41,304 nt of DNA from Anaerolineae bacterium (GTDB lineage: Bacteria > Chloroflexota > Anaerolineae > Aggregatilineales > Aggregatilineaceae), in the NCBI GenBank assembly GCA_023382715.1, contig JAHDWP010000029.1:1-41304 (forward strand). Direction: 5' to 3'. A model generated the notes under the pieces. The model ran no database searches and had not been told where the DNA came from. It saw only the letters and a program-made list of their open reading frames with translations. The position numbers and the translations under genes are program-made. Below, one piece after another: positions 2,620-20,347 of the stretch. Within the stretch, counting starts at the first letter, position 1, and every line of letters begins with the position of its first letter.

Positions 2620-4227
2620 TCAGGGCGTGGACGCGGAAATAGCCGCGCGCAGCGCCGTCCCGTCCAGCCCGACCACGGTCAGAAAGCCGCTGCTGAAGCG
2701 CAGCGAGTCATCCGGTCCCACCGCCAGCCAGCGCGCCGCCGATGTCCCCTGGACTCCGCCATCGTACAGGCTGAGCTGAGCGATCAGCCGCCCATCCCCC
2801 GTATCGAAGGCCAGAAGCTGCCCATCGGTGCTCAGCGCGTAGAGCAGCGCCCCATCCCCGATGCCCAGCAGCGGCGGGCGCAGGTGGCTGCCCGGCATGA
2901 AGGCGATCCAGCGGGCAACTCCGTCTGGCCCCCAGGCGTGCAGAACGCGGCCCTCGCCGCTGTAGGCGTAGAGCACCCCCTCCGGGCCGGTCACCAGATC
3001 CGCCCCCACGCTGAAGGTGCGCCCCGTCTCGAAAGCCGTGCTCCAGGCCAGGGCCGTGTCGAGCCGCCCGACGGCCATCCCCGCCAGCACCCAGAACGCG
3101 CCTTCCCCCGCCGCAACCGGCACGGGCAGCGCTTCGAACGCGCGCCGGGTGAGCACTGCGCCCGCGCTATCCACCACCGTCAGCGCATTGTCCGGTGTGG
3201 CGACGGCCAGCCGGTCGCCGCTGACGGCCCAGCGAACGGCGCGCTCGCCCAGCGGCTCCGTCTCCCAGAGGGGCGCGCCGTCCGGGGTGAAGGCGGCCAG
3301 CCGCCCCGCAGCCGTCATGAAGACGACGGCCCCGTCCAGCAGGATCGGCGGCGTGAGCATCTTCGGCGGCGCCCACAGCGCGCTCAGCCGCCCGCCAGCC
3401 AGCACGATCACCTGATCGGCTGAAGTGGCCACCAGCACGCGCCCGTCGGGCAACGCCAGCAGGCCGGTCACGCTGCCCAGCGTGTCGAACTGCCAGATCG
3501 CCGCTCCGCCCGCCGTGACGGCCTGCACATGGGCGCTGCTGACTACCACGTAGGTGCCGTCCTCCAGCGGCAGCGGGGCGAGCGTCAGGCGGTCGGCCAG
3601 CGTGAAATGCCAGCGGTAGGCGGGGTGCACCCACAGATTCGCCAGGTAAGTGAAGTCCACCGGGTGCAGCCAGCCCAGCTCCAACGGATTCTGCGCGGTG
3701 TAACCTGGCCCACCCTCGTGGCGATAGCGCGTGCGCACCTCGTAATGCAGGTGAGGTCGCCCGCGCGAAGGGAAGCCGATGGCCCCCACGATGTCGCCGC
3801 GCTCCACGCACTGGCCCATCGGCGGGAAGACGTGCCCGTTTAGCTCCTCCATGTGCCCGTAGAGCGTGTTCACCAGCGTGCCGTCCGGCAGCGTGTGCTG
3901 GACGACGACCACGCCCTTTTCGGTGTCCCAGCCCTGCGGATCGCTGAAGGTCACCTGGCCGCGCGCCGCCGCCCGCACTGGCTCGCCGAGTTGCTCAAAC
4001 GCCACATCTATGCCGGTGTGCAGCCCGCCGAACCGCGCGCGGTAGATGGCGAAGTCGGTGCGCTCGATGTCAATACCGGGCACCGGCAGGTCGAAGCCGT
4101 CGGCGTAGCCACATGGTGCGCTATCCGCCTGGGCCAGCGCAGCGGATCGGGCGGAGTGATCAAGCGGATTAGCGGGCCAGACCAGCCCGGTGAGGAAGAG
4201 GAGAGTCGCTATGCTTCGCCAGGTCAT
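2620..4227 (-). CDS. Secreted M23-family peptidase with beta-propeller-like C-terminal region
   Basis: 535 residues from the ATG at 4227. This start places a hydrophobic signal sequence (about residues 5-20) at the N-terminus and excludes the repeat upstream, which a longer frame would translate. The LytM/M23 zinc site is complete: H70 and D74 in GLHTGIDV, H125 in YGHM, and RPHLH with H159/H161. The fold cuts peptide cross-bridges in peptidoglycan. From about residue 215 the protein consists of repeated blade-like segments such as DGRVLVATS, DGAPLWETE and DGALLYALSTDG, resembling PQQ-type propellers. Its context with permease genes is not functionally informative. The ribosome-binding site is weak, so the start is the least certain point. 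Confidence 0.85.
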   Translation of the reverse strand: MTWRSIATLLFLTGLVWPANPLDHSARSAALAQADSAPCGYADGFDLPVPGIDIERTDFAIYRARFGGLHTGIDVAFEQLGEPVRAAARGQVTFSDPQGWDTEKGVVVVQHTLPDGTLVNTLYGHMEELNGHVFPPMGQCVERGDIVGAIGFPSRGRPHLHYEVRTRYRHEGGPGYTAQNPLELGWLHPVDFTYLANLWVHPAYRWHFTLADRLTLAPLPLEDGTYVVVSSAHVQAVTAGGAAIWQFDTLGSVTGLLALPDGRVLVATSADQVIVLAGGRLSALWAPPKMLTPPILLDGAVVFMTAAGRLAAFTPDGAPLWETEPLGERAVRWAVSGDRLAVATPDNALTVVDSAGAVLTRRAFEALPVPVAAGEGAFWVLAGMAVGRLDTALAWSTAFETGRTFSVGADLVTGPEGVLYAYSGEGRVLHAWGPDGVARWIAFMPGSHLRPPLLGIGDGALLYALSTDGQLLAFDTGDGRLIAQLSLYDGGVQGTSAARWLAVGPDDSLRFSSGFLTVVGLDGTALRAAISASTP

Positions 4228-4314
4228 ATCACGAACGACGGAATAACTCCCGTAACCAACGGAGAGCACCGTCCAGATTGTACTGGCGCGCGGCGCTTCC
4301 GGCCAGAAACAGGA

Positions 4315-4512
4315 GTCCACGAACGAGTCGTCAGGCAGTGATCGAAGGCCCCCATTCCCCGGCCCCTTCTCCCAGCAAAGCCAGGGGAAGGGGAAGTGTG
4401 GTACACCGCGATCAAAGTCCCCCTCTCTAGCTCGGCTGGAGAGGGGGATTGAGGGGGTGAGGCGCTCAGCGAGCATTCCCCAATTTCCCCTGGCGACAGG
4501 CTGTTCGTAGAC
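4315..4512. repeat. Palindromic repeat with terminal inverted repeats (family B, copy 1)
   Basis: The element begins GTCCACGAAC (4315-4324) and ends GTTCGTAGAC (4503-4512), inverted repeats matching at 9 of 10 positions. Inside are GC-rich arms such as CCCCCATTCCCCGGCCCC and GAGAGGGGGATTGAGGGGG. The first 54 nt recur in reverse orientation at 33001-33054 with three differences. It fills most of the gap between the M23 gene and the permease genes, and no gene is seen in it. Confidence 0.7.
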
Positions 4513-4545
4513 CCCCAAACAGCGGCGGACGGTATATGCGCAAGA

Positions 4546-4606: not shown

Positions 4607-5926
4607 TCAGCCCTTCAGCCCCGTCGTGGCGATGCCTTCGGTGAACTGGCGCTGAGCGATCAGGTAGATGATCAGCACCGGCACCAGCGTGATGACCGAG
4701 GCGGCCATCAGCAGGTTGATGTCCGAGCCGGCCTCGGTGGTGAAGGCGTACAGCCCATAGGAGATGGGCCGCCATTTGTCGCTGAACGTCACCAGCAGCG
4801 GCCATTCGAGGGCGTTCCACGTGCCGATAAACGTGAAGATGATCGTGGTCACAATGGCCGCTTTGGAGATGGGCACCACAATGGTGAACAGGAAGCGGAT
4901 GTGCCCGGCCCCATCAATGCGAGCCGCGTCCCACAGGTCTTCAGGAATCTGGCGGAAGAACTGGCGCAGCAGGAAGATGCTGAACGTGCTCGCCAGGAAG
5001 GGCACCACCAGCGCCGGCCAGCTATCCATCCAGCGCCAGGAGATCGGCCCGTCCACCGTGAAGAAGCTCCCCAGGCCGAGGAAGTTCTCCAGTCCCAGTT
5101 TGTCGAGCGCCTCGTAGATCGGCTCGGCAATCGCCTGGCGCGCCTCGGTGATACCCCAGGCGTCCTGCTTGGCGGGGAAATCCTTGCTGAAGAACACGTC
5201 AATGTTCTTCACCATGTTGCGGTTGGGGATGAGCACGACCATCGTGGGGATGAAGATCGTCGCCAGGAAGATGCTGAACAGCAGGTTGCTGCCCGGAAAC
5301 TCGATGCGCGCAAAAGCGTAGGCGGCCAGGATGGAAGTCACCGTCTGGCCGATAATGGTCAGGATGGCCACTTTGATGCTGTTGAAGAAATAGCGCGAAA
5401 AATTGGACTCGTTCCACGCCTCGATATAGTGCGCTGCGCCGCCCACCACGACATAATCCTGATGCACCTCAAAGAGCTTGTTGAGCAGCGGCAAGTCAAT
5501 GTCCAGGCGCAGCGACGCATAGCCGATGCGCTGCGTGCGCAGGTACCCGTCGAGCGTCAGATCGCGCTTGAGCTTGCTGTCCTCGATCTGCGTGCGCACA
5601 TCGGCCAGGTAGGGCGGCACCAGGCCGGAGTCCAGCACATCCTGCATGGTGCGCCCCAGGTCCGCCTCTTCGATGGGCGTGACCGAGATGAACTGCTGCG
5701 AGGGGATCAGCTTCCCACGCACGATGTCGCCCTGCTTTTGCAGCGACGTGCTGACCATCCACAGGAAGGGCATCACAAAAAGGATCGCGCCCAGCGTCAG
5801 CATGATGTACACGAAAAGCCGGAAGAAGTTGATGCGCAGGCCCAGCCGTCGCAACGGGGCCATCGCCGCCTCCGCTGGCGGTGGAACCTTCAGCGATCGT
5901 GCGCCAGTCCCGGTGGTGCTAGCCAT
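4607..5926 (-). CDS. Carbohydrate-type ABC transporter permease (MalG-like), enlarged
   Basis: 439 residues against about 280 for a standard MalG-family permease. The first helix is at about 35-57. The EAA loop that contacts the ATPase is clear at 329-349 (DLWDAARIDGAGHIRF), followed by two C-terminal helices. The extra length is in two places: about 100 residues (68-165) after the first helix, predicted outside, and about 60 residues (236-300) before the EAA-containing core. Its ATG overlaps the end of the larger permease gene by 8 bp (ATGGCTAG). No ATPase or substrate-binding protein is encoded nearby, so the substrate is unknown beyond membership of the sugar-type family. Confidence 0.9.
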   Translation of the reverse strand: MASTTGTGARSLKVPPPAEAAMAPLRRLGLRINFFRLFVYIMLTLGAILFVMPFLWMVSTSLQKQGDIVRGKLIPSQQFISVTPIEEADLGRTMQDVLDSGLVPPYLADVRTQIEDSKLKRDLTLDGYLRTQRIGYASLRLDIDLPLLNKLFEVHQDYVVVGGAAHYIEAWNESNFSRYFFNSIKVAILTIIGQTVTSILAAYAFARIEFPGSNLLFSIFLATIFIPTMVVLIPNRNMVKNIDVFFSKDFPAKQDAWGITEARQAIAEPIYEALDKLGLENFLGLGSFFTVDGPISWRWMDSWPALVVPFLASTFSIFLLRQFFRQIPEDLWDAARIDGAGHIRFLFTIVVPISKAAIVTTIIFTFIGTWNALEWPLLVTFSDKWRPISYGLYAFTTEAGSDINLLMAASVITLVPVLIIYLIAQRQFTEGIATTGLKG

Positions 5927-8426
5927 AGAATACCTGCTCCCTTGCCAGCCGGTTTTGCACCAGGGTGAGGATCAGAATCACGCCGAACAGGCTGAAAGCC
6001 AGCGCCGCCGCATAACCGGGATCGTTGGCGGCGTAAAGCGCCTGAAAGATGTGCACGCTCATCGTGTCAATCTCTTTGCCGGTCGCCTGGCCACGTAATA
6101 CGTAAATGTGCGAGAAAGCCTTGAAGGTGCCGATGATCGAGAGCATGGACAGGAAGAAGGTCGTCGGCGAGAGCAACGGCAGGGTGATGTTGCGGAAGCG
6201 CGACCAGCGCCCGGCTCCATCCACTTCGGCGGCCTCGTACAGCTCGCCAGGGATCGCCCCCAGGCCAGCCAGAAAGACGACCGAGTTGTAACCGGCGAAG
6301 ACCCAGATGTTGTAGAGGATCACCGTGGTCAGGGCCAGGCTCGGCCCGGCCAGGCTCTCCGGGATGTGCAAAGGGTTGCCGCCCAACACCTGCTCGTAGA
6401 AGATGCGCACAATACCCGCCGGCTCCTTGAGCCAGGTCAGCGGCCCCAGCCCGAAGATGCCGACGATGCGGTTCGCCAGGGCTGTTGCGTCCAGGCGGAA
6501 GATGACCAGGAAGACGGTCGAGGTGGCGACGCTGGGCGCGATATAGGGCATGAAGTAAATCACGCGGTAGAGCGATTTGCCTATCGAAATCTCAGAAAAC
6601 AGCAGATAGGCCAGAAACAGCCCCAGCCCCAACTGGACCGGCACCGTGCCCACAGAGTACATGGCGGTGCGGTTCAGCGCGTCCAACGCCTCCTGCACCT
6701 CGCGCCCGCCCAGCGAGAGCGTGCGCGGCAGCTCGCCGATCAGCAGCCATCCCCCCACCATCATCAGCACGGCGAGCAGGATGGTCAGGCCGAAGCCGAG
6801 CGGCGTCTCGCGGCGCTGCGCGCTCTGCCAGACCAGGTAGGCCGCCCCGATCAGCAGCGCCCCGATCGCGATGGAGAACACCTGCGGCCAGTACAGAAGC
6901 TGCGCCTTAATCACGTCGGGCCGGACTGTCGGGTGTGGGGTGCTGCCGGTGGCGAACTCGTAGGCGCGCGCAAACTGCTCTTGCGTCAGCGACCCCATGC
7001 CCGCCGCTGTCTGCTGGCTCAGTTGCAGCGCGCCGACCAGGTAGAAGAACAGCATGAGAAGGGTCATCACCATGAGCACGCGGCCCAGGTGCAGCCAGCG
7101 GTACAGGCGCGGCTGTGTCTCATCATCCACGCGGCGGCGGGTGTAGGTCATGGTGAGTATGGCAGCCAGCCCAACGAAAATGCCCAGCGCCGCCGCCATC
7201 TGCCTGCCGAGCGGCTCGCTGTAGCCCTCGGTGCGCACAACGGTCTCACCCACATCCAGCGCCGAATAGATGGGCACCTGGCGCACAGCCCGCGCCCCCT
7301 CAGTGATGAAGGGCACGAACAGCTTCTCGCCCTGGGCAATGCCGGTGAGCTGCCCCTCACCCACCGTGCCATCCGGCAGAATGACGCGCACCTTCTGGTT
7401 GTTGACGAAGGCCGCCTCCAGGCGGGCGATGCGGTCTACCGATAGCTCGCCATAGGCCTCCGGTGCGAGCGGTGCCTGAATGGTCTGCCCCTTCACCGTG
7501 ACCTCGACCATCACCGCGCCGGACTCGAACTCCAGGCCGCTGATGCGCGTGCTGTCGTCGGGCACCACCACCACGCCCTGCGACACACGCTGGTTGAAGA
7601 CCAGCGCGGCGATCCGCTGCGCCTCGGCCACATTCGCCTGAAGCTGGTCAGTTGTGTACAGAGTCAGCAGCAGCGCCAGCAGAATGTACAGTCCCATCAG
7701 CAGCGCAGCGCTGACATAGCGCCCCGTGCGGATTTGCACCAGCCGCGTCAGCAAGAGATAGAGCAGCGCGCCGAACACTGCGAGGAGCAACAGCCAACCC
7801 AGCGTGCCCAGCCCCAATGCATCGTTCAGGCGCGGCCCGCCCACCCAGATCAGCCCCAGCCCCGCCAGGATCAACCACAAGACGGCTACCTGCCGCCCAT
7901 CACGCGCGGCGCGCCCCGGCTGAAAAGCGTCGGCGGTGTAGAAGCCCCCCAGGGCAATCAGCAGCAGCAGCGTGGGGAACCACCCATACCCATCGAGGCC
8001 CGTCACCAGGATGAAGGCCAGCACGATCAGCCCGGCCCCCGCCAGCAAACCTGGCACTACAAAGAATACCAGGCTGCCCCCATGCTCCTGCTGGTACTGG
8101 CGACCGCCGCGCCAGGCGCGATAGCCCATCCACAAGAAGATCAGGCTCAGCGCAAACAGTAACACGTAAGTCAGGCTGCCGAGCGAGCGCACGTAGTTGG
8201 CCAGGCCGACATATTTGTTGGTGATCGGCGAGCCGGACTTGAGGCTCTCATAAAAACCGGCTACGACCGGCCACAGTCCAAACAGCAGCGTGACAACCGT
8301 GGCAGGCAGCACAAAGAGATAGCCGGTCAGCGCTTCATGGAGTTTGCGACGGCGCTTCCCGGCGGCCAGCTCGTGCGTCACGGTGCTGGGTGACTCATCC
8401 TTGCTTCTCAACGACAGCGTGGTCAT
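5919..8426 (-). CDS. Carbohydrate-type ABC transporter permease (MalF-like) with about 500-residue insertion
   Basis: 835 residues, more than twice the family norm. Helix 1 (about 34-58, LTGYLFVLPATVV) and the C-terminal core (about 590-835) match a sugar permease, with the EAA loop at 729-749 (ELYEAAEVDGAGRWSRF). Between them lie roughly 500 residues with many further hydrophobic helices (around 84-102, 118-142, 150-164, 180-196, 208-228, 238-256, 408-428, 448-466, 516-534, 546-564) and a soluble segment (about 260-405) containing short beta-like motifs such as DGTVGEGQLTG. AGGGAG precedes the ATG by 5 nt. The gene is continuous with no frameshift. It presumably dimerises with the MalG-like protein encoded next. 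Confidence 0.9.
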   Translation of the reverse strand: MTTLSLRSKDESPSTVTHELAAGKRRRKLHEALTGYLFVLPATVVTLLFGLWPVVAGFYESLKSGSPITNKYVGLANYVRSLGSLTYVLLFALSLIFLWMGYRAWRGGRQYQQEHGGSLVFFVVPGLLAGAGLIVLAFILVTGLDGYGWFPTLLLLIALGGFYTADAFQPGRAARDGRQVAVLWLILAGLGLIWVGGPRLNDALGLGTLGWLLLLAVFGALLYLLLTRLVQIRTGRYVSAALLMGLYILLALLLTLYTTDQLQANVAEAQRIAALVFNQRVSQGVVVVPDDSTRISGLEFESGAVMVEVTVKGQTIQAPLAPEAYGELSVDRIARLEAAFVNNQKVRVILPDGTVGEGQLTGIAQGEKLFVPFITEGARAVRQVPIYSALDVGETVVRTEGYSEPLGRQMAAALGIFVGLAAILTMTYTRRRVDDETQPRLYRWLHLGRVLMVMTLLMLFFYLVGALQLSQQTAAGMGSLTQEQFARAYEFATGSTPHPTVRPDVIKAQLLYWPQVFSIAIGALLIGAAYLVWQSAQRRETPLGFGLTILLAVLMMVGGWLLIGELPRTLSLGGREVQEALDALNRTAMYSVGTVPVQLGLGLFLAYLLFSEISIGKSLYRVIYFMPYIAPSVATSTVFLVIFRLDATALANRIVGIFGLGPLTWLKEPAGIVRIFYEQVLGGNPLHIPESLAGPSLALTTVILYNIWVFAGYNSVVFLAGLGAIPGELYEAAEVDGAGRWSRFRNITLPLLSPTTFFLSMLSIIGTFKAFSHIYVLRGQATGKEIDTMSVHIFQALYAANDPGYAAALAFSLFGVILILTLVQNRLAREQVFYG

Positions 8427-8579: not shown

Positions 8580-10202
8580 TTACGGGCCGCAGCACGGCTT
8601 CGAGATCAGATCGCGCCGCTGGTACAGGATCATCCCCGTCCCGTAGTAATCGGTGGCGAAGATGCGCGCCTGGGCGTAACGCTGCTTGAAGGACGTATCG
8701 CGAGCCAGGCCGTTGCGCACGAAGCTCTCCATCAGCACAACGTAATCCGGCTCGTAGTCCATGATGAGCGCCGGAGGCACGGCGTAGTTCGCCCCCTCGG
8801 CCAGCAGGCTCGCGTCCAGCGGGTAATAGGCCGACACCTCTGGCGTGACCAGGCCCACCGTGTCGAGGATATGCGCCCGGCTGTAGTAGCCCACCGCGCC
8901 AATATCGCCCGCCGCGACCACGGTCGCCTCGTCAACTCCGTACTCATTGTGCAGAATTTCGCCCATGCGCCGGTAATTCAGCTCGATCTTGTGCCAGGCC
9001 ATCTCCGGCGCGGGCCGATCAGTGCCGTGATCGGGGTGCAGCACCCAGGCGTTGAGGGACAGCGCGACGAACAGCGCCCCCAGGGTCGCGCTCGCGACCG
9101 GCCCCAGGCGCGGATGCTGCACTGCTTCGGCCACCGCGCCAGCCAGCGCCCACACCCCCATGACAATCGCCACAAAGTAAGGCGGCAGCAGGGGAGCCAG
9201 ATACCAGCGGAAAATGAGCGGGTTCATGGCGCTGAAAATGGCGACGTACAGCCAGGGGTAGAGCAGGAAGGGCAGCGCGCGCGGCTGGCGCTTGACAGCG
9301 TACAACGTCCCGGCGGCGGCCAGCGCCGGATAGAGCACAATGCCCACGGCAATACCCGGCACGCCGAACGTTTCATACTCGAAGAACGGCGTTGCCATCT
9401 GCTGCAAGAGCCGGACAAGCGCCTGGAAGTCGTCCACGATGTAGGCGACGCGCTTGGCGCTCAGCGAGCGCGAGAGCAGCCCGCCGAAATAGGCCGCGCT
9501 GAACAGATACCAGGGGACCAGTGTCGCCACAAAGATCGCCCAGCTTCGCCAGGGCAATCGCGCCCAGCCGCGCCCTCTCCCCGCCCGCCAGGCAACGAAC
9601 AGTTGGTGAGCAAAGAACAGCCCGACCCACAGCAGCGCGTCCACGCGCGTCAGCACGCCCAGCGCGGCAAAAAGAGCCATCCAGCGCTCGCGGCCTGCAA
9701 CATAAGCAGACGCCGCCGCCACCATCCACAGAATGGCCACGCTGGTCTCCATGCCCCCGATAGCAAACGTCACGCTGGTCGGGGCGATCGCCCACAACAC
9801 GCCGACGATCGCGCCCGGCACGGCGCCGCCTCCCAGCCGCCGCACCAACAACGCCAGCAGCACGGCGCTCAGCGCGTCAGCGGCGGTATTGGCGATCAGC
9901 GCGAACCAGGGGTAATCGTCGCTGCCGGTGATCCAGCCGGCGCCGGCCATCAGCAGCGTGAACAGGGGGGTTGTGGTGCCCAGCGTGCGCACCCCAGGGT
10001 TGTAGACGAACCCATGCCCCTCGACGATGTTGCGGCTGTAGCGGAAGGTGATGAAGGCGTCGTCCACCGTGCGCGGGCCGGGCAGCAGCCGCGCCCCGAC
10101 GGTCAGCAGGATGATCAAGACTAGCGCGGCAGAAAAAGCCCGTGCGGATGTGATGGGGCGCACGCGCAGTCGCCCGGCAGAAGGTATGGACTCAGTGGTC
10201 AC
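8580..10202 (-). CDS. GT-C-type membrane glycosyltransferase
   Basis: 540 residues from a GTG at 10202, chosen because AGGAAGG lies 7 nt upstream; a longer frame opens at a TTG (10265) without such a site. About ten hydrophobic helices alternate with short loops. The first extracytoplasmic loop carries VDDAFITFRYSRNIVEGHG, in which the acidic pair is the usual catalytic/metal site of lipid-phosphosugar-dependent GT-C enzymes. The soluble C-terminal part contains a conserved-looking GDIGAVGYYS segment. The sugar and acceptor cannot be told from sequence. It lies upstream of the permeases on the same strand, 153 bp away. Confidence 0.85.
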   Translation of the reverse strand: MTTESIPSAGRLRVRPITSARAFSAALVLIILLTVGARLLPGPRTVDDAFITFRYSRNIVEGHGFVYNPGVRTLGTTTPLFTLLMAGAGWITGSDDYPWFALIANTAADALSAVLLALLVRRLGGGAVPGAIVGVLWAIAPTSVTFAIGGMETSVAILWMVAAASAYVAGRERWMALFAALGVLTRVDALLWVGLFFAHQLFVAWRAGRGRGWARLPWRSWAIFVATLVPWYLFSAAYFGGLLSRSLSAKRVAYIVDDFQALVRLLQQMATPFFEYETFGVPGIAVGIVLYPALAAAGTLYAVKRQPRALPFLLYPWLYVAIFSAMNPLIFRWYLAPLLPPYFVAIVMGVWALAGAVAEAVQHPRLGPVASATLGALFVALSLNAWVLHPDHGTDRPAPEMAWHKIELNYRRMGEILHNEYGVDEATVVAAGDIGAVGYYSRAHILDTVGLVTPEVSAYYPLDASLLAEGANYAVPPALIMDYEPDYVVLMESFVRNGLARDTSFKQRYAQARIFATDYYGTGMILYQRRDLISKPCCGP

Positions 10203-10308
10203 AGAGCGGCCTTCCTGGTACAAGAGCGAACCCACAGCCTGGGACAGCCCTGTCCCCTGGCGCAATTTCTATGGCTGATCGCCCCGGCACGCGCTCCATG
10301 CCAGCGGC

Positions 10309-11022
10309 TCAGTAGTCCGCTGCGTCGCCCGGCTGCGTGACGCTGCCCTGCGCTTCGGCCACGAGGCGCGCGCCGCTGCTCGTCCCGATGCGCGTCGCGC
10401 CCGCCTCGACCAGCGCCAGGGCGTCGGCATACGAGCGCACGCCGCCCGACGCCTTGACGCCCATCTCCGGCCCGACGGTACGGCGCATCAGGGCGATGTC
10501 GTGCACGGTCGCACCGCCCGGCCCGAACCCCGTCGAGGTCTTGACGAAATCGGCCCCGGCCTCCTGCGCGATCCGGCAGGCGGCGATCTTTTCGTCGTCG
10601 GTGAGCAGCCCCGTCTCCAGGATCACCTTGCAGATGCCGCCGTGCGCGCGCACAGCGGCGACGACCGCCGCGATGTCGCGGCCCACCAGGTCGAAATCGC
10701 CGGACTTCAGCGCGCCGACGTTCATCACCATGTCAATATCGTGCGCGCCGTTGAGCAGCGCCCGCTCCGCCTCAAAGGCCTTGACTTCGGGCGTCGTCGC
10801 GCCCAGCGGAAAGCCAGCCACCGTGCAAACCACCACGCCCTCGGCGCCGGACAGCAGTCGCGCCGCCAGCGCCACCCAGCACGGATTCACCGCCACCGAA
10901 GCGAAGCGGTGCGCCCGCGCTTCCTGGCACAGGGCGACGATCTGATCGTGCGTCACTTCCGGCTTGAGCAGCGTAGAATCGATCAGGCGCGCAAGCTCGG
11001 CAGCGCTGAGTGAGTGAGACAC
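10309..11022 (-). CDS. deoC: Deoxyribose-phosphate aldolase
   Basis: 237 residues, typical of the cytoplasmic DeoC aldolase that splits 2-deoxyribose 5-phosphate into acetaldehyde and glyceraldehyde 3-phosphate in deoxynucleoside breakdown. The Schiff-base lysine is K161 in [13 protein letters not shown]; the second active-site lysine is in [25 protein letters not shown] supplies the aspartate region. It starts at GTG 11022, with AAGGAG 7 nt upstream. No other deo genes are adjacent, though two deoxynucleoside kinases lie 22 kb away. Confidence 0.96.
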
Positions 11023-12965: not shown

Positions 12966-14618
12966 TCAGCGCATTGTCAACATCGGCAGCTTGATCCCGT
13001 GCCGGCGCGCGGCGGCGATGGCTTGCTCGTAGCCGGCGTCGGCGTGACGGGCGATGCCCATGCCAGGGTCAGTGGTCAGCACGCGCTCCAAGCGCCGCGC
13101 CGCTTCGGGCGTGCCGTCGGCGACGATCACCTGCCCGGCATGCTGGCTGTAACCAATGCCCACGCCGCCGCCATGATGGAAGCTGACCCACGTCGCCCCG
13201 CCGACCGCATTGATCAGCGCGTTGAGGATCGCCCAGTCGGAGACGGCGTCGGAGCCGTCCAGCATCCCCTCTGTCTCGCGGTTGGGCGAGGCGACCGACC
13301 CCGCGTCCAGGTGATCGCGCCCGATGACAATCGGCGCGCTGACCTGGCCAGAGGCCACCAGGTCGTTGAAGGCCAGCCCGGCCCGCGCCCGCTCGCCATA
13401 GCCCAGCCAGCAAATGCGCGCCGGCAGCCCCTGGAACTCGACTTCGCGCTGGGCCATCCTGATCCAGCGGGCCAGGTGCTCATCCTCCGGGAACAGTTCG
13501 AGGATCGCCTCGTCCGTGCGATAGATGTCCTGCGCATCGCCAGAGAGCGCCACCCAGCGGAACGGCCCCTTGCCCTCGCAGAACAGCGGGCGGATATAGG
13601 CCGGCACGAAGCCGGGGTAGTCGAAGGCAGCGCTGACGCCCGCATCGAGCGCCTGCTGGCGCAGGTTGTTGCCGTAGTCGAAGACGACCGCGCCGCGCGC
13701 CTGGAAGTCGAGCATGGCCTGGCAGTGGGCGGCCATCGTCTGGCGGGCCAGGCGCTGGTACTCGGCGGGATCGCGCTCGCGCAGCGCCGCCGCTTCGTCG
13801 GACGAAATGCCGGCGGGGATGTACGACAGCGGATCGTGCGCCGAAGTCTGGTCGGTGACCACGTCCGGCACGATGTCCATGCGCGCCAGCCGGGGGAAGA
13901 GATCGCCCGCGTTGCCGATGACGCCGACCGAGAGCGGCTCCTGGCGCTCTTTGGCGGTCAGGGCCAGCTCCAGCGCCTCTTCCAGATCGGTGACGACGCG
14001 GTTGACGTAGCGCATCCGCAGGCGGCGCTCGGCCATGCGCGGATCCGCCTCCACGATGAGCGCGACGCCCTCGTTCATGGTGACGGCCAGCGGTTGCGCG
14101 CCGCCCATCTCGCCCAGCCCGGCGGTCAGCACGAGCTTGCCTTTCAGGCTGCCCCATCCCTGCTGGCGGGCCAGCGAGCCGAGCGTCTCATACGTCCCCT
14201 GCAGGATGCCCTGCGTCCCGATGTAAATCCACGAGCCGGCGGTCATCTGACCGTACATGATCAGCCCTTGCCGCTCCAGCGCGTCAAAGTGCTCCTGCGT
14301 GGCCCAGTGCGGCACCAGGTTGGAGTTGGCGATCAGCACGCGCGGCGCGTCGGGGTGCGTTTTGAACACGACGACGGGCTTGCCGGACTGGACGAGCAGC
14401 GTCTCGTCGTTTTCCAATTCGCGCAGGGTGGCAATAATGGCGTCGAACGCCTGCCAGTTGCGCGCCGCCCGCCCGCGCCCGCCGTAAACGATCAGATGAT
14501 CGGGGTCTTTGGCGACATCGGGATCGAGGTTATTCATCAACATGCGCATGGCGGCTTCTTGCTGCCAGCCCTTGCAGGTGAGGGCCGTGCCGCGTGGAGC
14601 GCGAATCACACGGGTCAT
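12966..14618 (-). CDS. hutU: Urocanate hydratase
   Basis: 550 residues, the normal length of urocanase, the cytoplasmic NAD-dependent second enzyme of histidine degradation, which turns urocanate into imidazolone propionate. The family features are present: [11 protein letters not shown] near the N-terminus, [14 protein letters not shown] in the NAD-binding part, [13 protein letters not shown] with the active-site cysteine region, and [17 protein letters not shown] near the C-terminus. AGGAG precedes the ATG by 9 nt. The other hut genes are not in the window, so it stands as a single-gene unit. A TAGAAT -10 candidate lies near 14663-14668 on the minus strand. Confidence 0.98.
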
Positions 14619-17170: not shown

Positions 17171-20100
17171 TCATGCCCGCCGCACGCCGATGACTACGCT
17201 CTCCTCGTCGAAGCTGAACTCAGCGCTGTGCGCGCCCGGCTCCGGCCCGGACTCGACCAGGGCATCGGCCAGCGTCTCGCGCTGGATGACCTCGGCGAAG
17301 GCGCGCACCGCGTCGCGCAGCCGGCTGCTGGCCTGGCAGGTGATGGTGATGCGGTCGCTGATGGCGAAATCGGCCTCCTTGCGCAGCGATTGCACGCGGC
17401 GCACGAACTCGCGGGCCAGCCCTTCCTGGATCAGCTCTTCGGTCAGCGTCGTCGCCAGCGCCGCCACGTAGCCGTACTCTCCGGCCACCGCGTAGCCCGC
17501 CGCCGCCGACTGCACGACCTCGCACTGCTCCGGCGTGATGGCGTAGCTCTGCCCGTCCACCTCCACCGCGATCGTCTCCCCGGCCAGCAGCGCCTTCGCC
17601 CAGCGCTGCACATCGGCGGGCGCGCCTTCGCGCAGGGCGCGCTGCACCTTCGGGAAATCGCCCCTCAGCACGCGGGCCAGGACTTGCGGCAGCGGATTCA
17701 GGCTGTAGGAAACCATCGCCTCCGCCGATTCGGCCACCTGCACCGTCTTGACGTTCAGCTCCTCGCTGATGGTCGGCGCCAGGTCGCGCACCACGTCGCG
17801 CTCGGCGCTGTAGCGCACGACGAAGACCGCCTCAGCCAGCGGCTGGCGCACCTTGATTCCGGCGCTGTTGCGTGCCGCGTGCCCCAGGCTCACCAGCTTC
17901 TGCGCCAGGCGCATGTCGGCCATCAGCTTCTCGTCAATCAGCGCCTCGTCCTGCGCCGGCCAGAAGGCCAGGTGCACGCTCTCTGGCGCGGCGGGGTCGG
18001 CAGCCGCCACCAGGTTGCGATATATCGCCTCCGAAAGGAAGGGCATCGTCGGGGCGAGCAGCCTGGCCAGCGTTTCCAGACACTCGTAGAGCGTCTGATA
18101 AGCGGCCAGCTTGTCCGCATCGCTCTCCGACTTCCAGAAGCGGCGGCGCGAGCGGCGCAGGTACCAGTTGCTCAGCCCGTCCACAAACGCCTCGATCGGG
18201 CGCGTCGTGCGCGGCACATCATACGTCTCGTAGCCCTGCGTCACCTCGCGCACCAGCGTGTGCAGCTCGCTCAGAATCCAGCGGTCGAGCGGGTCGCGCT
18301 CGCTGACGGGCACTGGCGGTGTGCGCGGGTCGAAGCCGTCCAGGTTGGCGTAGGTGACGAAGAAGCTGTAGACGTTCCACAGCGTCAGGGTGAAGTTGCG
18401 CACCACCTCGCCGACCAGCTCCACCGAGAAGCGGCGCGGCTCGCCGGGCGGCCCGGCGGTGTACATGTACCAGCGGAAGGCGTCCGCCCCGTACTTCTCC
18501 AGCACGCTCCAGGGTTCAACGATGTTGCCCAGGCTCTTGGACATCTTGCGGCCCTGCTCGTCCAGGATGTGGCCCAGGGAGATGCAGTTCTTGAAATTGA
18601 CGCTCTCGAAGGTCATGGCGGCGATGGCGTGCTGGCTGAAGAACCAGCCGCGCGTCTGGTCCACGGCCTCGCAGATGTAATCCGCCGGAAACTGCTGGGC
18701 GAACATCTCCTGGTTCTTGTAGGGGTAGCCCCACTGGGCGGCGGCCATCGCCCCGCTGTCGAACCACACGTCAATCAGCTCCGGCACGCGGCGCATCGTC
18801 CCGCCGCACTGCGCGCAGGGGAAAGTGACCTCATCCACATAGGGCCGGTGCAGGTCAAGCCCGGACAGGTCTTGCCCGCTCAGCTTCTCCAGCTCGGTCA
18901 CGCCGCCGACGCAGTGCTTATGGCCGCACGCCGGGTTCTCGCACACCCACACAGGCAGCGGCGTGCCCCAGTAGCGCTCGCGGCCCAGCGCCCAGTCGCG
19001 CAGTTCCTCCAGCCAGTTGCCGAAACGCCCGTCCTTGATGTGCGCCGGCACCCAGTTGATCGTCTGGTTGAGCGCGATCATTTTGTCGCGGTAGCGTGTG
19101 GACTCGATGTACCACGTCTCGCGGGCATAATAGAGCAGCGGCGTGTGGCAGCGCCAGCAGAACGGGTAGTTGTGCACGTAGTTCTCGGCCTTGTAGAGCA
19201 GGCCGCGCGCCTTCAGCTCCCTCTTGATCAGCGGATCGGCATCTTTGACCCACAGGCCCGCCCAGGGCGTCACGGCGTCAATGAACGCGCCGTCCGGCCC
19301 CACCGTCTGGATGATCGGCAGCCCATACTGGCGGCCCACGTCCATGTCGTCTGCGCCGAAGGCGGGCGCGATGTGCACGATGCCGGAGCCGTCCTCCATG
19401 CTGACGAAATCGCCGTGCAGCACATAAGCGTGATCCTGCTCCAGCGGCAGGAAGGCGTAGAGCGGCTCGTAGCGCATCCCCAGCAGGTCTTCGCCCTTCA
19501 TCTCGCGCACGACCGTGTAGGCGCGCGGGTCGTTGAGCGCTTTGTCCAGCAGGGCTTGCGCCAGGATCAGGCGCTCCGTCCCTTGCCCATCGGCGGCCGG
19601 CCCCTCCACCATGACATACGTCTCGCGCCGGTTGACGGCCAGCGCCGCGTTGCCAGGCAGCGTCCAGGGTGTCGTTGTCCACACGAGGAAGTACGTGCCC
19701 GGCTCACCCTTGACGGCGAAGCGCACAAAGACGCTCGGATCGGCCACTTCCTCATAGCCGAGCGAGACCTCATGACTGCTCAGCGGCGTCCCGCAGCGGG
19801 CGCAGTAGGGCACAACCTTGTAGCCCTGGTAGAGCATCCCCTTGTCCCAAAGCTGGCGCAGAATCCACCACACGCTCTGGATGTAGTCGTTCTCATAGGT
19901 GATGTAGGCGTTCTCCAGGTCCACCCAGAAGGCGATGCGCTCGGTCAGCCGCTCCCACTCCTTGATGTAGCGGAAGACGCTCTCGCGGCACTTGCGGTTG
20001 AACTCGGCGATGCCGTATTCCTCGATCTCGTGCTTGTGAGTGAGACCCAGCTCCTTCTCGACCTCGATCTCAACCGGCAGGCCGTGCGTATCCCAGCCGC

Positions 20101-20347
20101 CCTTGCGCAGCACATACGCGCCGGTCATGGTGTGGTAGCGCGGGAACATGTCTTTGAAGGCGCGCGCCAGCACATGATGGGTGCCGGGCCGCCCGTTGGC
20201 GGTCGGCGGCCCCTCGTAGAACACGTAGACGCGGCCTCCTTCGCGCTCCTTCATCGAGCGGCGGAAGATGTCGCGCTCGCGCCAGAAGGCGAGTTGTTCC
20301 ATTTCCACGGCTTCGATGTCTGCCTTCGGCGTAACTGGCTTGAACAT
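17171..20347 (-). CDS. ileS: Isoleucyl-tRNA synthetase
   Basis: 1058 residues, a class I synthetase that charges tRNA-Ile. The HIGH-equivalent is GTHHVLARAFKD (about 55-66), a form seen in type 2 (eukaryote-like) IleRS, and KMSKS is at 601-605 in GRKMSKSLGN. Between them lies the CP1 editing domain. Cysteine pairs that can bind zinc occur as CARCG, CWRCH, CENPACGHKHC and CAQCG. The anticodon-binding region follows residue about 680. AGGAGGAG lies 4 nt before the ATG. It is the last gene of a same-strand run that begins with an isoleucine-type T-box leader about 3 kb upstream; its own 183-bp leader has no T-box. Confidence 0.98.
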   Translation of the reverse strand: MFKPVTPKADIEAVEMEQLAFWRERDIFRRSMKEREGGRVYVFYEGPPTANGRPGTHHVLARAFKDMFPRYHTMTGAYVLRKGGWDTHGLPVEIEVEKELGLTHKHEIEEYGIAEFNRKCRESVFRYIKEWERLTERIAFWVDLENAYITYENDYIQSVWWILRQLWDKGMLYQGYKVVPYCARCGTPLSSHEVSLGYEEVADPSVFVRFAVKGEPGTYFLVWTTTPWTLPGNAALAVNRRETYVMVEGPAADGQGTERLILAQALLDKALNDPRAYTVVREMKGEDLLGMRYEPLYAFLPLEQDHAYVLHGDFVSMEDGSGIVHIAPAFGADDMDVGRQYGLPIIQTVGPDGAFIDAVTPWAGLWVKDADPLIKRELKARGLLYKAENYVHNYPFCWRCHTPLLYYARETWYIESTRYRDKMIALNQTINWVPAHIKDGRFGNWLEELRDWALGRERYWGTPLPVWVCENPACGHKHCVGGVTELEKLSGQDLSGLDLHRPYVDEVTFPCAQCGGTMRRVPELIDVWFDSGAMAAAQWGYPYKNQEMFAQQFPADYICEAVDQTRGWFFSQHAIAAMTFESVNFKNCISLGHILDEQGRKMSKSLGNIVEPWSVLEKYGADAFRWYMYTAGPPGEPRRFSVELVGEVVRNFTLTLWNVYSFFVTYANLDGFDPRTPPVPVSERDPLDRWILSELHTLVREVTQGYETYDVPRTTRPIEAFVDGLSNWYLRRSRRRFWKSESDADKLAAYQTLYECLETLARLLAPTMPFLSEAIYRNLVAAADPAAPESVHLAFWPAQDEALIDEKLMADMRLAQKLVSLGHAARNSAGIKVRQPLAEAVFVVRYSAERDVVRDLAPTISEELNVKTVQVAESAEAMVSYSLNPLPQVLARVLRGDFPKVQRALREGAPADVQRWAKALLAGETIAVEVDGQSYAITPEQCEVVQSAAAGYAVAGEYGYVAALATTLTEELIQEGLAREFVRRVQSLRKEADFAISDRITITCQASSRLRDAVRAFAEVIQRETLADALVESGPEPGAHSAEFSFDEESVVIGVRRA

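Follow-up and report, generated by a model that had tools for sequence, protein, structure and literature searches.

How does an ATP-binding cassette (ABC) importer permease come to hold some 500 additional residues inside its membrane core, and what might they do there? The question is raised by a gene, here called F, in a window of 41,304 nucleotides (the whole stretch of DNA that was analysed; contig JAHDWP010000029.1 of assembly GCA_023382715.1) from an Anaerolineae bacterium of the Chloroflexota. A previous reading made from the letters of the DNA alone (the sequence-only reading) had described one uninterrupted 835-codon frame at 5919-8426 in which a MalF-like first helix and an EAA-containing core are split by about ten helices and a soluble segment of about 145 residues. 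Hydropathy, an AlphaFold model and alignments bear out this description, and the frame is unbroken; it lies on the minus strand, which had been left unstated. F is a single permease in which about 500 residues separate core helix 1 from core helix 2, with the following parts:

5919..8426, minus strand: F, an 835-residue MalF/UgpA-like ABC importer permease, stop included
8247..8330, minus strand: core transmembrane helix 1 of F (residues 33-60)
6687..8183, minus strand: insertion between core helices 1 and 2 (residues 82-580), in the place of the E. coli MalF P2 loop
7647..8189, minus strand: inserted hairpins A, B and C, six helices (residues 80-260)
7212..7643, minus strand: extracellular soluble segment of about 145 residues, part beta in the model (residues 262-405)
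6729..7208, minus strand: inserted hairpins D and E, four helices (residues 407-566), E being common to nearly all inserted relatives examined
5922..6674, minus strand: core helices 2-6 of F (residues 585-835)
6186..6260, minus strand: cytosolic EAA coupling loop of F (residues 723-747), with ELYEAAEVDGAGRWSRFRNITLPLL at 728-752 aligned with MalF and UgpA

The plus strand across 5919-8426 is broken by stops, and the frame of F, running from 8426 down to 5919, reaches a codon score of 309.5, exceeded among the called genes of the window by that of 17171-20347 alone (453.5). Residues 599-829 match the BPD_transp_1 domain with 50.8 bits (cut-off 26.4), and the coupling loop corresponds to the EAA-X3-G motif as given in the available part of PMC3150292. 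The best NCBIfam match is UgpA with 80 bits, short of the equivalog cut-off of 335, and the MalF model matches far under its own cut-off. A scan of genome contigs gave 39 loci, some of which belong to the same assemblies as genomes in the survey of the order described below; L009-L021 hold the long form, whole or partial, at 59-92% identity, and L022-L024 carry shorter insertions. Because the architecture recurs in several independent Chloroflexota assemblies, where long-form relatives have 830-853 residues and are 60-90% identical, the joining of two genes by assembly error, which the sequence-only reading had raised, is excluded. All ratios of nonsynonymous to synonymous substitution rates (dN/dS) are below 1, indicating purifying selection: comparison with L009 gave 0.06 for the core, 0.17 for hairpins A-C, 0.10 for the soluble segment and 0.21 for hairpins D-E, and comparison with L013 gave 0.12, 0.65, 0.33 and 0.46, respectively. 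The soluble segment has the lowest dN/dS within the insertion in all five comparisons made.

Hydropathy counts nine or ten inserted helices. The AlphaFold model built from 42 rows places ten, at residues 75-115, 120-142, 149-167, 177-204, 207-229 and 235-276 before the soluble segment and at 406-432, 439-478, 503-536 and 542-570 after it, together with a short helix at 482-493; the structure prediction that had been proposed as a check hence yields five inserted hairpins and a soluble segment, with a predicted local distance difference test (pLDDT) score of mostly 70-90 for the inserted helices. Lysine and arginine amount to 0.187 per residue in the predicted cytosolic loops compared with 0.078 in the short outside loops, a count resting on helix limits set by hand, and this bias assigns the soluble segment to the outside and the EAA loop to the cytosolic side. 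An F-x-G-L-x-N-F/Y motif follows core helix 1, and the insertion lies between this motif and core helix 2. This site was aligned with Firmicutes permeases cut at the motif (the uncut alignment misplaced their helix 1), and uncut insertion-free relatives independently give the same site.

The VIA comparison matches model residues 570-785 to MalF 267-481 (4ki0_F; Z 8.9, 28% identity) and residues 571-784 to chain A of mycobacterial SugABC (7cad; Z 9.0, 21% identity), a chain of 277 residues and hence without such an insertion; middling Z values of this kind are common for helical models, and the sequence alignment agrees with the match to the MalF core. Since model residue 570 corresponds to about MalF 267 and the P2 region spans MalF residues 91-271 according to the available part of PMC3150292, the insertion occupies the place of P2. 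The sequence-only reading had taken permeases of the MalF family to have about 300 residues and six helices, which does not hold for every MalF: that of E. coli has 514 residues with P2 at this very place. P2 itself is soluble, comprises about 180 residues and has no membrane helices. F and E. coli MalF (of MalFGK2) thus resemble each other in core fold, EAA loop and an insertion in the same extracellular loop, but F carries ten inserted helices and a segment without detectable similarity to P2, and a separate, ordinary MalF (L187) is encoded in the same genome.

Attempts to recognise a known domain in the insertion gave sub-threshold matches only in Pfam; a PDB profile search with it returned a designed protein (E 0.094) and BamB (from E 0.11), which were taken as chance. 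Foldseek with the model of F gave no match at E 0.001, and no well-known permease extension was recognised in the middle part, the fold of the insertion alone not having been searched. The VIA rows cover mainly residues 397-785, and exporter helices align at about 400-570 with Z 7-8.4, within the common range of the tool. When the hairpins of F were compared with one another by hhalign, A-E (51%) and B-C (37%) stood out, the resemblance of A to E being no more than suggestive in the window; a similarity between core45 and core56 in the same comparison was rejected as a product of overlapping segments. Twenty pattern matches in viral contigs included no relative. According to the available part of PMC8603345, six transmembrane segments are a conserved feature of ABC importer permeases. 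No description of a permease like F was found in the open-licence literature, judged by titles and abstract openings; the importer class is a known one, and it is the architecture of F that lacks a description in the literature searched.

The question of how the insertion arose is best approached through its relatives, in which the sequence-only reading had suggested looking for the same insertion. It is present there, and graded from none to about nineteen helices. The distance from helix 1 to core helix 2 is 46-57 residues in insertion-free relatives (L173, L174, L177-L181 and the paralogs L093, L095 and L101), which have 320-362 residues in total, and 108-115 in the one-hairpin forms L166-L171. 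It rises to about 273-299 with three hairpins, 352-363 with four, 491-507 in family f84 with four hairpins and the soluble segment, and 537-539 in family f1, including the window, with five hairpins and the soluble segment; this segment is common to the f84 long forms and F. A side clade of family f2 shows distances of 128-139 (one hairpin), 204-219 (two) and 420-440 (about five; L089 and L103), and L020 reaches 929 residues with about nineteen inserted helices. Hydropathy-based helix counts differ by one or two among close relatives, and the measured gaps are unreliable for L172, L175 and two rows marked None. The L020 protein (L020:1987-5655) is a relative of 1223 residues in which inserted helices flank the soluble segment on both sides; its partner permease (5627-7075) reads as two frames of 100 and 378 residues, and the contig may hold a frameshift.

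Hairpin E recurs across these forms. Its profile matches 57 of 68 permeases, 49 of which built the profile and eight of which did not (L166-L171, L175 and L176), and the remaining 11 are the ten insertion-free forms and L172. Among 649 other neighbour proteins used as a control, once five duplicates of F and an F-like fragment (L105) are set aside, the profile matched best at 0.012, to the partner permease of L103. Tryptophan, tyrosine, glycine and proline residues of hairpin E are invariant across 15 rows, and in four proteins the first inserted hairpin holds a recognisable extra copy of it: L087 (E 2.5e-9), L104 (4.5e-7), L089 (1e-5) and L103 (9e-5). In a sample of the phylum, the insertion as query found matches in 3 of 301 genomes and the soluble segment alone in one of 301, its own genome. 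Hairpin E plus core gave matches in 27 of 400 genomes, 15 of them beginning within hairpin E; these 15 include G501 and G037, two genomes that lack the insertion. Across the order, F matched at E 1e-40 in 123 of 154 genomes, a few being weaker paralogs (e.g. G367 and G438), and is usually single-copy; 17 of 18 genomes of family f1 matched, G308 among them with a 552-residue frame.

A core-only tree was calculated from the last 255 residues of 63 rows (L014, L017, L018, L019 and L080 excluded) and rooted by midpoint; 41 of 60 inner branches are starred, and several deep nodes have support of just 80-91. The insertion-free forms lie outside in this tree and UgpA has 295 residues, for which reason growth was preferred over loss, and we conclude that the loop has very probably grown stepwise by paired helices, from none to about nineteen. 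One orthologous transporter would then span this whole range, with intermediates present and the core little changed. The graded series makes it testable whether such growth was useful or tolerated and, if true, would be a natural record of membrane protein growth in a probable Chloroflexota phosphate-ester importer.

What does this importer carry? A binding protein of the SBP_bac_8 family, an assignment for which five family members were tested, is encoded at the second gene position following F in 19 of the 20 loci with shorter forms or from the side clade (L082-L092, L094, L096-L099, L102-L104 and L109, with L089 and L103 included despite about five hairpins), being absent at L082. No binding protein was found adjoining F and its partner permease G in the fetched loci of families f83, f84, f87 and f1 with at least four hairpins, the exceptions being a divergently placed gene in L136 and one in L078, from an f2 genome grouping with the long forms; in G441 (f87) the matches to F and the binding protein lie within about 1 kb by coordinates. 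L023 and L024 likewise showed no family member alongside. The family profile matches 120 of the 154 genomes: 116 have both proteins, 7 F alone, 4 the binding protein alone and 27 neither (Fisher p 1.4e-19, uncorrected for descent). In the genome of F the ortholog is G000:C30:34803-36161, with 501 bits against 52 for the next best, and we infer with high confidence that it is the cognate binding protein of F and G. The existence of this separate protein leaves the built-in substrate domain suggested in the sequence-only reading unsupported. In an f83 genome (L128:7330-10229) the family occurs in two tandem copies, of 442 and 554 bits.

Phosphate ligands of UgpB-type proteins are two tyrosines and two serines, the meaning of which is taken from the available part of PMC12718374; in E. 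coli UgpB numbering they map to Y65, S144, S270 and Y346. All four are kept in 50 of 56 family rows, including the ortholog of the window's genome, and the other six rows differ at one position each; none of 20 other binding proteins of the genome has the full set. The tryptophan clamp for glycerol is not kept, with W at position 192 in none and at position 195 in three of the 56 rows. As the phosphate ligands are retained and the clamp is absent, a phosphate ester other than plain glycerol phosphate is the best guess, and these residues make a glycerophosphodiester- or nucleotide-like ester the rather likely substrate. A comparable combination, phosphate ligands without the tryptophan clamp, is found in the U3G (dinucleotide) binding protein of Thermus thermophilus and the GPC binding protein of M. 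tuberculosis, as far as the available part of PMC12718374 covers them; the substrate here is a prediction from residues, and the binding protein is 23% identical to E. coli UgpB. A beta-glucoside-binding protein had been considered its nearest relative and was dropped in the light of the same source. The "sugar-type" label of the sequence-only reading therefore stands for the permease family but not for the likely substrate, and the annotation is better given as probably a phosphate-ester importer than as a sugar permease. The best PDB matches of the binding protein are 7c0f and 7c0x, named only "sugar ABC transporter, periplasmic sugar-binding protein", which we take to be the Thermus U3G-binding protein. 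Another close known system is the UgpA/UgpE/UgpB glycerol-3-phosphate importer, as the best NCBIfam match of both F and G and in the conserved Tyr/Ser phosphate set; on the other side, F and G lie far under the equivalog cut-offs, the clamp is missing, and UgpA is far shorter than F.

The partner permease lies directly downstream of F:

4607..5926, minus strand: G, a MalG/UgpE-like partner permease (439 residues) whose gene shares 8 bases with the end of F
5378..5749, minus strand: enlarged first extracellular loop of G (about residues 60-183)
5033..5221, minus strand: second, smaller enlarged loop of G (about residues 236-298)

G matches BPD_transp_1 with 49 bits and, among NCBIfam models, UgpE best with 128.4 bits (equivalog cut-off 297). 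The starts of its helices 1 and 2 are 147 residues apart in the window and 147-149 across f1, compared with 63-86 in most shorter-form loci (108 in L097), 122-123 in f83 and 279-290 in f84. At the f84 locus L073 (6378-8018, minus strand), the outside loop between these helices has about 280 residues and a sub-threshold CE2_N match (E 0.078). The G proteins of L087, L089 and L103 in the f2 side clade have four extra N-terminal helices instead of a larger loop, and G is normal beside the four-hairpin forms of f87. OB_MalK had no match on the window contig and nine elsewhere in the genome, none of them tied to F and G.

From these observations a mechanism can be proposed. F and G are the permease pair of a single ABC importer of the Ugp/Mal (CUT1) kind, presumably powered by a MalK-type ATPase encoded elsewhere. 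The hairpins would sit in the lipid next to core helices 1 and 2 and act as a platform on which the outside segment is mounted. Together with the enlarged loop of G, this platform may keep the binding protein positioned above the pore, in the way that MalE is held by MalF P2 and MalG P1 (contacts stated in a title cited in the available part of PMC3150292), with translocation proceeding through the ordinary core. We give this explanation as a whole, a CUT1 phosphate-ester importer with the insertion as docking platform, about an even chance. Of the roles that the sequence-only reading had suggested, an extra scaffold fits best, relatives showing hairpins added in pairs, and nothing was found in favour of a polymer-handling platform.

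One point in favour of docking as the role of the insertion is the lipid anchors. A lipobox was found by pattern in all 17 members of the binding-protein family from outside the order (15 outer loci, L098 and L099) and in 3 of 39 inside it, where the three patterns probably precede the real start; lipid-anchored binding proteins seem to have been abandoned in this order. A second point is that extra parts are also present in at least 5 of the 19 additional permease loci examined in this genome. L005 (636 residues) has an insert of about 300 residues, helices included, that separates core helices 3 and 4, L185 (662 residues) an N-terminal part with a PDZ domain above cut-off plus a longer first loop, L186 (484 residues) and L007 (445 residues) extra N-terminal helices, and L188 (405 residues) a first loop lengthened by a soluble stretch that matches SH3_3 below threshold; the positions in L005 and L188 were read by eye. 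None of these parts resembles the window insertion (best blastp E 0.39). The ordinary MalF, L187 (600 residues), has a long loop and reaches 378.6 bits to the MalF model (cut-off 392). Embellished permeases are hence a habit of this genome, which is compatible with a shared need for capturing unanchored binding proteins or with a shared tolerance, and which does not shift the odds between docking and tolerance. The constraint on the soluble segment and hairpin E further indicates that these two do something. By analogy with MalF and MalG, docking of the binding protein may be what the insertion serves, a role we hold only tentatively. It is doubtful, although conceivable, that growth proceeded partly by hairpin duplication in at least two lineages, that the largest forms mount a segment capturing an unanchored binding protein, and that the embellishment of other permeases is the same solution found repeatedly.

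Several observations weigh against this explanation. The 42-row model of F is of middling quality overall (pLDDT 65.9, predicted template modelling score 0.53) and poor in the soluble segment (mostly 30-60), and an earlier 15-row model was poor (pLDDT 57). No similarity of the soluble segment to MalF P2 was seen (hhalign probability 0.5%, from shallow profiles). Hairpins A-C evolve fast, with dN/dS of 0.52-0.65 in three of four comparisons (0.17 against L009; the comparison with L014 leaves them uncovered), which suits tolerated ballast. The lengths of F and G are loosely linked (Spearman 0.54 over 41 pairs, including three paralog pairs and uncorrected for descent). By one pattern, none of the 20 other binding proteins of the genome (L146-L165) has a lipobox either, so its absence is not special to F and G, and it is also missing from the binding proteins of one-hairpin forms inside the order (L088, L090-L092). 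As to the substrate, one of the 20 control binding proteins, L155, comes close with Y-S-T-Y, and the three GDPD-family enzymes of the genome are all on other contigs; as support for a phosphate ester such enzymes are weak, being common.

The explanation that competes best with a docking platform is tolerated accretion, in which a permissive loop gains hairpins that are hard to lose; the bundle by itself would then contribute nothing to transport, and any usefulness would be confined to the soluble segment. We regard it as a real possibility, though short of probable. Helices gained in pairs preserve topology, copies of hairpin E are recognisable in the four proteins named above, hairpins A-C have the top dN/dS in three of four comparisons, and the separate clade of L089 and L103 also reached about ten helices; unrelated extra parts elsewhere in other permeases of the genome are expected if the lineage tolerates them. 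Mere tolerance sits less well with dN/dS below 1 throughout, with the invariant residues of hairpin E and with the soluble segment as the most constrained part of the insertion. For hairpins A-C, tolerance and a share in the docking platform are about as likely as each other.

Two neighbours of the permease pair suggest a further reading:

8580..10265, minus strand: GT-C-like multi-helix protein upstream of F, so classed by appearance and a weak glycosyltransferase match
2620..4518, minus strand: M23 peptidase plus PQQ-propeller protein downstream of G, a neighbour kept in family f1

The bundle could recruit these two proteins as envelope enzymes and couple uptake to envelope turnover. Within f1 both neighbours are mostly kept: of the 11 unique genomes with sufficient sequence, 10 have the GT-C-like gene ahead of F (L021 does not), and the M23/PQQ gene follows G in 10 of 13 (exceptions L010, L019 and L070), but neither stands beside the f84 long forms (0 of 4 loci), which have the soluble segment too, and we consider such coupling improbable. 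Lateral entry, in which the extra helices would be a side path bringing a lipid-attached phosphate ester to the core, draws on the phosphate-type binding protein and on the large extra membrane part adjoining core helices 1 and 2; it is very improbable, as a separate binding protein serves the system and no lipid-binding fold was recognised, the inserted helices being barely covered in the fold comparisons. An assembly or gene-fusion artefact, for which the unusual length is the sole point, has a negligible probability in view of long forms in independent assemblies, purifying selection and graded intermediates. Nearby genes of the window further include a deoC aldolase (10309-11022) and a urocanase (12966-14618).

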